From Aureimonas sp. AU20 (lineage in GTDB: Bacteria; Pseudomonadota; Alphaproteobacteria; Rhizobiales; Rhizobiaceae), in the NCBI RefSeq assembly GCF_001442755.1, contig NZ_CP006367.1, positions 1,736,001 to 1,800,000 of the forward strand: a stretch of 64,000 nt of DNA, in the 5' to 3' direction. The notes beneath the pieces were generated by a model. That model was not told the origin of the DNA and did not search any database. It saw nothing but the letters and a program-made list of their open reading frames with translations. Made by a program: the position numbers and the translations under genes. Positions 3,251 through 14,037 of this stretch are shown piece by piece. Each line of letters starts with the position of its first letter. The first letter of the stretch is position 1.

Positions 3251-4327
3251 TCAGACCCGTCGACCGTCGGCCCCGAAGAGATGCGCCTGAGCGGGATCGA
3301 AGCCGAGCGGGATGGTCTCGCCGGGGCGGATCGGCTGCTGGCCGTCGAGCAGCACCGTGGTCGCCTCGCCGGCTTTCGTGTTGGTGTAGACCACCGTGGA
3401 GCCGCCGAGATGTTCGACCAGCTGCACCGAGGCTTCGCCGAGCCCGGCGCGCGCGTCTCCGGCCCGCAGATGCTCGGGCCGCACACCGAAGGTCAGTTCC
3501 TCGCCGGCGCGCGCCTCCAGCGGCCGTTCGAACTCGACCCGCAATCCGCCGATGTCGATCGTGCGCCGCGACGGGTCGCCCTCGGCCATGCGCGCCTTAA
3601 GGAAATTCATCTTCGGCGAGCCGATGAAGCCGGCGACGAAGCGGTTGGCCGGGTGGTTGTAGAGATCGAGCGGCCGGCCCGCCTGCATGACGCGGCCTTC
3701 CTTCAGCACCACGATCTTGTCGGCCATGGTCATGGCCTCGACCTGGTCGTGCGTGACGTAGATCATCGTGTTGCCGAGTTGCTGGTGCAGCCGCGTCAGC
3801 TCCACGCGCATCTGCACGCGCAGCTCCGCGTCGAGATTGGACAGCGGCTCGTCGAACAGAAAGATCTTGGGCTCGCGCACGATGGCGCGGCCGATGGCGA
3901 CGCGCTGGCGCTGGCCGCCCGACAGGGCCTTCGGCTTGCGCTGGAGGAGCGGGCCGATCTGCAGGACATCGGCCGCCTCCTTCACGCGGCGCTCGATCTC
4001 CGGCTTCTTCATGCCCGCCGTTTCCAGCCCGAAGGCGAGGTTCTTGTAGACGCTCATATGCGGGTAGAGCGCGTAGGACTGGAACACCATGGCGATGCCG
4101 CGCTTGGAGGCCGGCACGTCGTTCATGCGGGCGCCGTCGATCAGGAGATCGCCGCCCGAAATCTCCTCCAGCCCCGCGATCATGCGCAGAAGCGTGGACT
4201 TGCCGCAGCCGGAGGGGCCGACGAAGACGGTGAAGTCCCCGGGGTCGATCGCAAGGTCGATGCCGTGGATGACCCGAAGGCCGCCATAAGTCTTCTCGAC
4301 GCCGCCGAGCTGGATGCTGGTCGCCAT
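3251..4327 (-). CDS. Carbohydrate ABC transporter ATPase (MalK/UgpC family)
   Basis: The 358-residue protein is the ATP-hydrolysing subunit of a sugar importer of the CUT1 type. Visible motifs are Walker A GPSGCGKST at 37-45, Q-loop VFQSYALYPH, signature LSGGQ at 135-139, Walker B FLFDEP at 156-161, a VTHDQ switch histidine and a C-terminal TOBE/OB regulatory region of about 120 residues. The start at 4327 is chosen because GGGAGAG lies 9 bp upstream; a longer in-frame start at 4435 would overlap the oxidoreductase gene. It is the last gene of the minus operon led by the binding protein at 8582 and probably serves the permeases at 5474-7292. Confidence 0.93.
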   Translation of the reverse strand: MATSIQLGGVEKTYGGLRVIHGIDLAIDPGDFTVFVGPSGCGKSTLLRMIAGLEEISGGDLLIDGARMNDVPASKRGIAMVFQSYALYPHMSVYKNLAFGLETAGMKKPEIERRVKEAADVLQIGPLLQRKPKALSGGQRQRVAIGRAIVREPKIFLFDEPLSNLDAELRVQMRVELTRLHQQLGNTMIYVTHDQVEAMTMADKIVVLKEGRVMQAGRPLDLYNHPANRFVAGFIGSPKMNFLKARMAEGDPSRRTIDIGGLRVEFERPLEARAGEELTFGVRPEHLRAGDARAGLGEASVQLVEHLGGSTVVYTNTKAGEATTVLLDGQQPIRPGETIPLGFDPAQAHLFGADGRRV

Positions 4328-4349
4328 TGAGCACTCTCCCGATTGTCGT

Positions 4350-5474
4350 TCAGTCCTGCGGCTGCCAGCTCGCGTATTTCGGATGGTCCGGCCCGATCGG
4401 CAGTTCGACGTCGGTGCCTGAATCCGCCGAGGCATAGACGGCGGTCACGAGTTCCAGCGAGCGCCGGGCGTCGCGGCTCGTCACCGGCGGCGGCTCGCTC
4501 GCCATCAGCGCCTTGTGGAAGGCGGCCATCTGCCCCCGGAACCGGCGCCCCACCGGCTCGAAATCGCTCAACGCCTCCTCGATCGCCGCAGCCACCTCGT
4601 CGTTCGCCGGCAGGATCGTCCAAGGCCCGTCGCCGGGCGAATAGGGCTCGTGCGTGCTCTCGATGGTCACGTTCTCGAAATGGAGGCGCAGCCGGCTGAT
4701 CTCGTCCTGACTGCCGAGCGTCGCGGTGGAGGAGAGGAACGCGCCGCTCTGCATGCGCCAGGAGGCCGAGACGCAGTCCTCCACCTCGATTGCGTTCACG
4801 CGCGTCGCCGTACGCGCGAAGACGCGGTCGATCGGGCCGAAGAGGAAGGTTGCGAGATCGTGGATATGGATGGCGTGGGTCATCAGGACGCCGCCGAGCT
4901 CGGTCTTCCAGCGCCCGCGCCAGGGATTGTCGTAATAGTCGGCGGTGCGCTTCCAGAAAGTCTCGGCGACGCCGACATAGGGCTTGCCGGCAAGGCCCGC
5001 GTCGATGATGCGCCGAGCCTGCATGGCGCCGTCGCCGAAGCGATACTGGAAGATCGGCATGAGCCGCCCCCGCGCCCGCGCCTCGGCCTCGATGATCTCG
5101 TCCACCTCCTTGAGGGAGCCGACCAGCGGCTTCTCGCACACCACATGCTTGCCGGCCGCCAGAGCCTTCAGAATCATCGACTTGTGCAGACCGGGCGGCG
5201 TGCAGATGTCGATCACGTCGATGTCGTCCCGCCCTAGCAGCGCGTCGAAATCAGTCACGCGATCGCGAACGCCGAACTCCTCGCCCACCGAGGCGAGGCG
5301 GGCCGGGTCGAGATCGCAGAGCGCGGCGAGATCAAAGCATTCGGGCGCCGGCTGGTAGCCTTCGACGATATGCGAGCGGCCGATGCCGCAACCGACCACG
5401 GCGACGCGAAGGCGCCGGGTGGGCGTGGCGATGGCTTGGGCGGGGAGCGTGACGTTCATCGGGTCAGGGTCCAT
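4350..5474 (-). CDS. Gfo/Idh/MocA family NAD(P)-dependent oxidoreductase
   Basis: The 374-residue protein has an N-terminal Rossmann fold (GCGIG at 28-32) and the family's CEKPLVGS segment, whose EKP motif carries the catalytic lysine. Its C-terminal half resembles the Gfo/Idh substrate-binding domain. Such enzymes oxidise or reduce a hydroxyl of sugars, cyclitols or sugar acids. The start at 5474 overlaps the stop of the upstream permease as TGATG; an ATG at 5459 is a possible alternative. Its position inside an ABC importer operon suggests that it acts on the imported compound. It is one of three related but distinct dehydrogenases in this locus. Confidence 0.88.
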   Translation of the reverse strand: MDPDPMNVTLPAQAIATPTRRLRVAVVGCGIGRSHIVEGYQPAPECFDLAALCDLDPARLASVGEEFGVRDRVTDFDALLGRDDIDVIDICTPPGLHKSMILKALAAGKHVVCEKPLVGSLKEVDEIIEAEARARGRLMPIFQYRFGDGAMQARRIIDAGLAGKPYVGVAETFWKRTADYYDNPWRGRWKTELGGVLMTHAIHIHDLATFLFGPIDRVFARTATRVNAIEVEDCVSASWRMQSGAFLSSTATLGSQDEISRLRLHFENVTIESTHEPYSPGDGPWTILPANDEVAAAIEEALSDFEPVGRRFRGQMAAFHKALMASEPPPVTSRDARRSLELVTAVYASADSGTDVELPIGPDHPKYASWQPQD

Positions 5475-12720: not shown

Positions 12721-12752
12721 GAAGAGGCCGGGCGGGACGCCGCCGGCCCTTC
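12721..12752 (+). other. Imperfect hairpin between sugar isomerase and dehydrogenase genes
   Basis: GAAG, GGCCGG and CGG on the left can pair with CCG, CCGGCC and CTTC on the right with two single-base bulges and a short GACG-containing loop. There is no following T-run, so it looks like an mRNA-stabilising or attenuating element rather than a full terminator. Confidence 0.45.
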
Positions 12753-12789
12753 GGAAACGTCGATCCGCCGAAAGCGGACGGGAGGGGTG

Positions 12790-14037
12790 ATGGCACAGGG
12801 TATCAAACGCATCCGCTATGCGCTGGTCGGCACCGGCAATCGCGGCACCACCATGTGGGGCCGTGAGCTTCTGGCGGGCTGGAGCGAGTTCGTCGATCTC
12901 GTCGGCATCTGCGATCTCAACCTGATGCGGGCCGAGCGGGCGCGGGCGATGATCGGCTCCGACGCGCCGCTCTATGCCGATTTCGACGCTATGCTGGCGG
13001 AGCTGAAGCCCGCGCTTGTCGTGGTCTGCACACCGGACGATACGCATGACGACCTGATCGTCCGGGCGCTGGAAAGCGGCGCCGACGTCATCAGCGAAAA
13101 GCCGATGACCACGACGCCCGAAAAGGTCGCCCGCATCCGCGAGGCGGAGGCGCGCACCGGCCGGCGGGTGGACGTGTCCTTCAACTACCGCTTCTCCCCA
13201 ACCTCGGCGCGGATCAAGGAACTGATCGAGGAAGGCGCAATCGGGGAGGTGACCTCGGTCGACTTCCACTGGTATCTCGACAACCAGCATGGCGCCGACT
13301 ACTTCCGCCGCTGGCACGCCTTCACGAAACATTCCGGCTCGCTCTTCGTCCACAAGGCGACCCACCATTTCGACCTTCTGAACTGGTATCTCGATTCCGA
13401 TCCGGTGGAGGTGAAGGGCTTCGGCCAGCTTCTGCACTACGGGCGCAACGGCCCCTTCCGGGGCGAGCGCTGCCGCACCTGCCCGCACAAGAGCGAGTGC
13501 GACTATTATTTCGACCTGTCGGCCGATCCGTTTCTCGACGCGCTCTACGAAGAGCCGTCCGGCGTCGATGGCTATGTCCGGGATGCCTGCGTGTTTCGCG
13601 AGGAAATCGACATTCCCGACACGATGACGGCGGCAATTCGCTATCGCAGCGGGGTTCAGGTCTCCTATTCGCTCAACACCTACATGCCGATCGAGGGGCA
13701 CCACATCGCCTTCAACGGCCATCGCGGCCGGATCGAACTGCGCCAATACGAGCGCCAGCCCTGGAGCGTGCCGCCGGCGGACGAGATCGTGGTGATGAAG
13801 AGCTTCGGCGGCGGCACGGAGCGGATCTGGGTGCCGCACGAGCCGGGCGGCCATTACGGCGGCGACAACCGGATGCGCGACATGATCTTCAAACCCGGCT
13901 CCAACGACCGGCTGCGCCAGCGCGCGGGATCGCGCGCCGGCGCCATGTCGGTGCTCTGCGGCCTGGCCGCGTTGGAAAGCTCGCGCGCTGGCGGCGCGGT
14001 CGCCATCCAGCCGTTGTCGCCGGAACTGACGCGATAG
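12790..14037 (+). CDS. Gfo/Idh/MocA family oxidoreductase with a cysteine cluster
   Basis: The 415-residue enzyme starts at 12790 after GGAGGGG. It has the Rossmann loop GTGNRG at 14-19, a SEKPMTT catalytic lysine segment and KATHHFDLLNWYL, where the histidine pair lies in the active-site helix. An extra loop at about residues 228-240 contains three cysteines in CRTCPHKSEC, which could bind a structural metal. This longer subtype is often seen beside sugar importers. It is the last gene of the TetR-linked plus operon, so the locus carries three paralogous dehydrogenases likely acting in sequence or in opposite directions on one substrate. Confidence 0.87.
   Translation: MAQGIKRIRYALVGTGNRGTTMWGRELLAGWSEFVDLVGICDLNLMRAERARAMIGSDAPLYADFDAMLAELKPALVVVCTPDDTHDDLIVRALESGADVISEKPMTTTPEKVARIREAEARTGRRVDVSFNYRFSPTSARIKELIEEGAIGEVTSVDFHWYLDNQHGADYFRRWHAFTKHSGSLFVHKATHHFDLLNWYLDSDPVEVKGFGQLLHYGRNGPFRGERCRTCPHKSECDYYFDLSADPFLDALYEEPSGVDGYVRDACVFREEIDIPDTMTAAIRYRSGVQVSYSLNTYMPIEGHHIAFNGHRGRIELRQYERQPWSVPPADEIVVMKSFGGGTERIWVPHEPGGHYGGDNRMRDMIFKPGSNDRLRQRAGSRAGAMSVLCGLAALESSRAGGAVAIQPLSPELTR

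Follow-up and report, generated by a model that had tools for sequence, protein, structure and literature searches.

The 64,000-nucleotide window analyzed here, from the Rhizobiaceae strain Aureimonas sp. AU20 (NZ_CP006367.1, positions 1,736,001 to 1,800,000), carries at 3251–14037 a two-armed locus that includes a member of the DUF993 protein family. All ten proteins encoded there match their expected families in searches with Pfam profiles. The minus arm holds an extracellular solute-binding protein (SBP; 7296–8585; PF13416, PF01547), a UgpA/MalF-like CUT1 permease (6336–7292) and a MalG-like one (5474–6346)—both PF00528, with UgpA and MalF, and MalG, as their top NCBIfam models, all below cut-off—followed by a Gfo/Idh/MocA dehydrogenase, Gfo1 (4350–5474; PF01408, PF22725), and an ABC transporter ATPase of the MalK/UgpC type (3251–4330; PF00005, PF08402, PF17912), which exceeds the cut-off of the NCBIfam UgpC subfamily model (467 bits; cut-off 432). 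The locus thus has a complete CUT1 set: SBP, two permeases, and a MalK-type ATPase with TOBE/OB domains. The N-terminus of the SBP, MTFSVTRRSLLQGG, reads by eye as a twin-arginine-like signal. On the plus strand are a TetR-family regulator (8703–9392; PF00440, PF17938 [TetR_C_29]), a second dehydrogenase, Gfo2 (9544–10704; PF22725, PF02894, PF01408), the DUF993 protein (10716–11885; PF06187, E = 5.4e-187), a xylose-isomerase-like barrel of isomerase/epimerase-like type, here called TIM (11882–12715; PF01261, E = 3.5e-42), and a third dehydrogenase, Gfo3 (12790–14037; PF01408, PF02894). By their coordinates, the five minus-strand genes overlap or are separated by at most 19 bases; the run from Gfo2 to Gfo3 overlaps or has gaps of at most 74 bases, and 151 bases separate TetR from Gfo2. 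This is the inventory that the original prediction, made from the letters alone, had given, and the Pfam search also upholds its statement of absences: the ten proteins include no kinase, no glycosidase, and no known sugar-acid dehydratase.

Are the two arms controlled together? An operator-like palindrome, TAACCAAACGGTTA, lies at 8645–8658, with 59 bases between it and the SBP start and 44 between it and the TetR start, and an exact second copy lies at 9466–9479, 64 bases before Gfo2. Even with up to two mismatches allowed, the window holds no further match (2 versus 0.02 expected), and the genome holds no further exact copy. One exact palindrome before each arm therefore supports a single shared regulator, as in the original proposal of two divergent operons under one TetR gene, rather than arms that are regulated independently. 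The locus is thus supported, on sequence evidence, as a co-regulated catabolic module, and the TetR protein would be expected to repress both arms. Six further genome matches carry two mismatches; the resulting total of 8 does not exceed the 9 found with a reversed control pattern, and a wider regulon beyond the locus was rejected on this count. No sigma-70-type promoter was recognized in a scan of 8560–9560. The second operator copy folds as a small hairpin (z = -3.1), as any palindrome does, and we do not use this as evidence.

The operator-like site is widespread in relatives. We compared the locus with 80 genome loci, the best of 594 relatives and related to each other. A relaxed motif, TAACYNNNNRGTTA, occurs 88 times in them, in 53 of the 80, versus 1.2 occurrences expected from mononucleotide shuffles, and 41 of the 73 loci with enough upstream DNA have it no farther than 300 bases before Gfo2; these counts overstate independence, because the window was the source of the motif and the loci are kin to one another.

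Which genes travel together? Gfo2, DUF993, and TIM lie near each other on one strand in 72 of the 80 loci; in three of the eight loci lacking this trio, DUF993 sits at a contig edge. Among plasmids, 147 records carry DUF993, and the trio is complete in 10 of the 18 that were fetched. In the Chimaeribacter arupi plasmid locus (L097), Gfo2- and TIM-type genes are annotated and DUF993 matches in two unannotated pieces (10001–10967), so this gene may be disrupted. The trio also occurs in Gemmatirosa (Gemmatimonadota) and in Nonomuraea and Embleya (Actinomycetota), where the ten neighboring proteins examined include products of MFS and LacI genes and no further pathway enzyme.

The transporters beside the trio vary. 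In the 62 loci that are full length (at least 20 kb each), CUT1 permeases are found in 28, NMT1-type ABC transporters in 13, TctA in 10, and none of these in 15, with four overlaps; Erwinia and Chimaeribacter loci have an MFS gene as the transporter neighbor. Gfo1 is present in 21 of the 28 CUT1 loci, Gfo3 in 20, and Gfo4—a further Gfo relative—in 15, and all three are absent from the 34 loci without CUT1. Their confinement to CUT1 loci is best read as marking entry enzymes for CUT1 import. Gfo2-DUF993-TIM therefore looks like a conserved core and Gfo1 and Gfo3 like an accessory entry part. The original prediction had put all three dehydrogenases in one pathway; the locus is indeed coherent as a catabolic unit, but the three do not form an equal series, since only Gfo2 belongs to the core, and we rejected Gfo1, Gfo2, and Gfo3 as one linear set. 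Their mutual identity of 23–31%, in partial alignments, further indicates that they are not recent duplicates.

How strictly is DUF993 tied to this core? It was found in 24 of 299 sampled genomes of the source phylum and 48 of 151 of the source's own family, and in 1 of 185 genomes of the class to which genome G196 belongs; viral contigs gave no match to the protein's patterns. In the family sample, Gfo2 was detected at E = 1e-100 in 15 of the 151 genomes, 14 of which also have DUF993 (4.8 expected; hypergeometric P = 3e-7, kinship ignored). The closest 80 loci had suggested that DUF993 is always paired with Gfo2, an idea rejected by the same sample (48 genomes with DUF993, 15 with Gfo2). In one 76%-complete genome (G513, contig C409), TIM directly follows Gfo2 and there is no DUF993 match.

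Each of the three core proteins has a close relative of known structure (4dnh, 3oqb, and 3ju2/3qc0). Gfo2 matches 3oqb over 376 residues (E = 2.4e-188). Members of the Gfo/Idh/MocA family have an EKP lysine and a downstream catalytic Asp and His. In Gfo2, K111 and the candidate Asp and His, D198 and H202, are each conserved in 98% or more of 98 sequences. All three dehydrogenases have the Rossmann and C-terminal domains above the Pfam cut-offs as well as the EKP motif, which was not found in the Gfo4 of locus L082. Near the place of the catalytic Asp, we see by eye a Thr in Gfo1, whose top PDB match is 3q2i, and a Lys in Gfo3. The TIM structure model (predicted local distance difference test score, pLDDT, 90.4) matches PF01261-type barrels in fold, and the closest PDB entries are 3ju2/3qc0 (SMc04130). 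E145, D180, H207, and E251 are invariant in 32 aligned TIM sequences and resemble the Glu-Asp-His-Glu set that forms the metal site of this family. The fold is that of IolI and the xylose isomerase-like proteins, but TIM is only 22% identical to IolI and groups with 3ju2/3qc0 and 7vpf, for which no stated reaction came up.

The original prediction singled out DUF993 as the key enzyme, one not known to have an established reaction. No paper naming the family was found among the open-licence papers searched, and the sources seen assign it no reaction. The protein covers the whole PF06187 profile (1–382 of 382; 621.8 bits, cut-off 24) and has PDB 4dnh as its single significant sequence match. Its structure model is a DHDPS-like (beta/alpha)8 barrel, the class I aldolase fold, which is of lyase type. 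Enzymes of the DHDPS/NAL family have a Schiff-base lysine on strand 6, a Tyr on strand 5, and a GTTGE motif. K230 of DUF993 lies on predicted strand 6, is invariant (113/113 and 78/78 aligned sequences), and in a nonsignificant alignment coincides with a lysine of a DHDPS protein from the same genome. DUF993 is a putative Schiff-base lyase that would act through K230.

Is this one enzyme used in one setting only? We assigned 40 further DUF993 loci to types with reference proteins and identity thresholds, the first 20 of them chosen mostly because DUF993 had no Gfo2 next to it, which means that the proportions cannot be taken as a census. Five have the window's arrangement (type I, the label also given as a set to the 80 genome loci, including the eight without a full trio; plasmid loci were typed from gene tables). 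Type II (21/40) combines DUF993 with LacI, another Gfo, CoA-transferase, enoyl-CoA hydratase, mostly aldehyde dehydrogenase, and often CUT1; type III (10/40) has CUT1, an SDR, and a GMC oxidoreductase, often with Dabb and LacI; and type IV (3/40) has an SDR with CoA-transferase, enoyl-CoA hydratase, acyl-CoA dehydrogenase or GMC, and a distant TIM. One locus fits no type. In a tree of 78 DUF993 proteins, types II (96/86), III (100/100), and IV (100/99) each form one clade, and type I is the background (three changes), with two long rows (L083, L084). Seven columns separate the types under a 90% rule. At 44 positions, a charged, polar, or aromatic residue is shared by 77 or all 78 of the sequences. 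With conserved residues nearly identical across the sampled types, all of them would most simply catalyze a single reaction, with an intermediate that is identical or closely similar from type to type. When the window's SBP was compared with two CUT1 binding proteins from types II/IV, neither gave a significant match, as if the importers had been recruited separately. The strongest additions to the original prediction are this DHDPS-fold protein conserved across four cluster types, the shared operator, and the division into core and entry parts.

Two of the types have features of their own. The type II loci (L130–L148, L167, and L168) strongly conserve DUF993 with CoA-transferase, enoyl-CoA hydratase, and Gfo under a LacI-type gene, and 20 of the 21 have aldehyde dehydrogenase; CoA enzymes are unexpected in a sugar-type cluster. 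The type IV loci (L085, L088, and L090) have acyl-CoA dehydrogenase genes inside their DUF993 operons, followed in L085 and L088 by electron-transfer flavoprotein genes; the L088 enzyme is closest, below cut-off, to the models for acryloyl-CoA reductase and cyclohexane-1-carbonyl-CoA dehydrogenase.

What might the reaction yield? Within the flanks fetched, a glycerate kinase of the MOFRL type occurs at 4/96 type I, 1/22 type II, 6/11 type III, and 1/8 type IV loci. Set against a rough background rate of 1.1 per 4.6 Mb, this is an enrichment with P = 0.001 in type I and P = 1e-11 in type III. Moreover, 5 of the 16 DUF993 genomes within a 61-genome MOFRL sample (G482, G487, G515, G523, and G526) have the kinase 12–18 kb from DUF993, past the flank. 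The kinase was rejected as a constant DUF993 partner (12/138 loci); its presence beside some loci therefore makes glycerate a plausible product for the family, a suggestion that is weak for the window's type I.

Our best explanation of the whole, which we prefer tentatively and rate a shade below even, is a nonphosphorylating, TetR-repressed regulon in which an entry part feeds a core with DUF993 as a carbon–carbon lyase. We propose that the CUT1 importer together with Gfo1 and Gfo3 would import and oxidize or rearrange a sugar-type compound; that Gfo2, working in the oxidative direction, would convert a hydroxyl of the resulting intermediate to a ketone; and that TIM, using a metal, would shift or epimerize the position beside it. 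Lys230 of DUF993 would then form a Schiff base with the keto compound, probably either a keto sugar or a keto sugar acid, and the enzyme would, by retro-aldol cleavage rather than dehydration, release two unphosphorylated fragments, one of them leading towards glycerate. A route without phosphorylation would fit the glycerate kinase near some DUF993 relatives. The order of these reactions, like the substrate and the cleavage itself, is a proposal.

Several results weigh against this explanation. DUF993 has no PF00701 match, with PF06187 the only family reported; its comparison with three DHDPS-family proteins of its own genome is nonsignificant (hhalign E = 0.23, probability 0.3%), and in that nonsignificant alignment His189, invariant in 78 of 78 sequences, occupies the place of the DHDPS Tyr. 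Its sequence contains no GTTGE motif, and the Foldseek matches show that the DHDPS fold also hosts dehydratases. In 32 of the 73 testable loci, there is no operator match in the 300 bases before Gfo2 (some have one farther upstream), and the fetched stretches of the 11 loci named Bradyrhizobium contain no match at all. A glycerate kinase is missing from the flank of 92 of the 96 type I loci and lies about 1.5 Mb from the locus in the window's own genome. The trio is incomplete in 8 of the 18 fetched plasmid records, and counts over the 80 genome loci are not independent, because these are the best of 594 and kin to each other.

Judging from its neighbors, the core may take an acid, not a neutral sugar, as its substrate. 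In 31 of the 80 loci, including all 13 full-length NMT1 loci, there is a gene of the enolase superfamily whose product has conserved lysine and acidic residues; this gene is not in the window's cluster. The superfamily is rich in sugar-acid dehydratases, and NMT1 and Tct transporters usually carry organic anions. NMT1, tripartite tricarboxylate, or MFS transporters and this gene beside core relatives are what would suggest an acid substrate. In L082 (13175–14590), L028, L039, and other loci, an enolase-superfamily protein of about 470 residues is encoded between DUF993 and TIM or near the trio; the L082 protein had no PDB sequence match at E = 0.01 and no NCBIfam match.

These same genes and transporters favor an acid-sugar route in which DUF993, like L-2-keto-3-deoxyarabonate dehydratase, would work on a 2-keto acid through a Schiff base, dehydrating or decarboxylating it, and would cleave no carbon–carbon bond. 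Foldseek lists that dehydratase (7c0d, 7c0c, and 3fkk) among the DHDPS-fold matches, but only the fold is shared, identity to the dehydratase chains is 11–12%, and the enolase gene is absent from the window's ten proteins and from all 41 type II–IV loci. We consider this route unlikely. Equally improbable is a glycoside route resembling that for levoglucosan (Lgd), in which Gfo1/Gfo3 would oxidize C3 of an imported glycoside, TIM would eliminate the aglycone, and a second Gfo would reduce the 3-keto sugar. It would leave DUF993 with a side role and no main one, yet in all 34 full-length non-CUT1 loci Gfo1 and Gfo3 are gone and DUF993 and mostly the core persist. A cyclitol route, in which Gfo2 would yield an inosose, an IolI-like TIM would isomerize it, and DUF993 would open the ring by retro-aldol cleavage, is very unlikely given the inositol-model scores, the low identity of TIM to IolI, and the lack of inositol growth data in our searches.

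Does the locus match a system already described? No such pathway was found in the open-licence literature, with the proviso that some queries may have missed papers. The levoglucosan locus (LgdA, LgdB1, LgdB2, LgdC) likewise combines an ABC importer, dehydrogenases, and a sugar isomerase-like barrel, but DUF993 is not named in two abstracts on it (PMC7676230, PMC10066097). Levoglucosan identity was rejected for Gfo1–Gfo3, which score 66–93 bits with the levoglucosan dehydrogenase model NF052479 (cut-off 650), as was myo-inositol identity (inositol 2-dehydrogenase, TIGR04380; 70–107 bits, cut-off 355). Compared with DHDPS/NAL proteins (PF00701), DUF993 is 13% identical and has about 34 extra residues before the aligned part. 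The nonphosphorylative Entner-Doudoroff route has a likeness in L085, L086, and L087, where a DHDPS-fold protein lies near an aldehyde dehydrogenase and a glycerate 2-kinase; unlike that route, the window's ten proteins include neither its known aldolase nor its sugar-acid dehydratase, the Gfo and TIM steps are extra, and no glycerate kinase is nearby.

Independent data come from Sinorhizobium meliloti, where DUF993 corresponds to SMc04132 and the TIM barrel to SMc04130; from the gene order of L082, SMc04133, SMc04135, SMc04138, and SMc04139 would be Gfo2, SBP, Gfo4, and Gfo1. A proteomics table for TY medium gives lower levels of SMc04132, SMc04133, SMc04135, SMc04138, and SMc04139 for a phbC phaR strain than for a phbC one (log2 -1.69, -3.65, -1.23, -1.31, and -1.07, respectively; PMC12542648). 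The relatives are therefore produced and co-vary in S. meliloti, which does not tie them to TetR.

Elsewhere in the window, 16799–21118 (minus strand) and 21296–23049 (plus strand) hold a second CUT1/UgpC-like importer together with an inositol monophosphatase and a DUF4996-bearing glycerophosphodiester phosphodiesterase. This looks like a glycerophosphodiester-use locus, perhaps for glycerophosphoinositol. At 544–3222 (plus strand), nucleoside diphosphate (NDP)-forming acyl-CoA synthetase-type domains are fused to a GNAT acetyltransferase domain, presumably resembling the Pat-type lysine acetyltransferases.

What would this mean for the family? It is possible, at rather less than an even chance, that DUF993 serves as the hub lyase in a widespread and undescribed nonphosphorylating route. 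Four or more regulon types, differing in their entry enzymes, importers, and regulators, would then feed one keto intermediate that DUF993 cleaves, the window's type being the most widely spread of those seen and having its own entry dehydrogenases. If so, an inducer from one type should lead to the intermediate common to all. The function of DUF993 can be tested directly with the help of the operator pair, the invariant residues, and the different cluster types. If confirmed, DUF993 would be a new carbon–carbon lyase and would account for a block of carbon-use genes that have no assignment in Agrobacterium-, Sinorhizobium-, and Bradyrhizobium-type bacteria.

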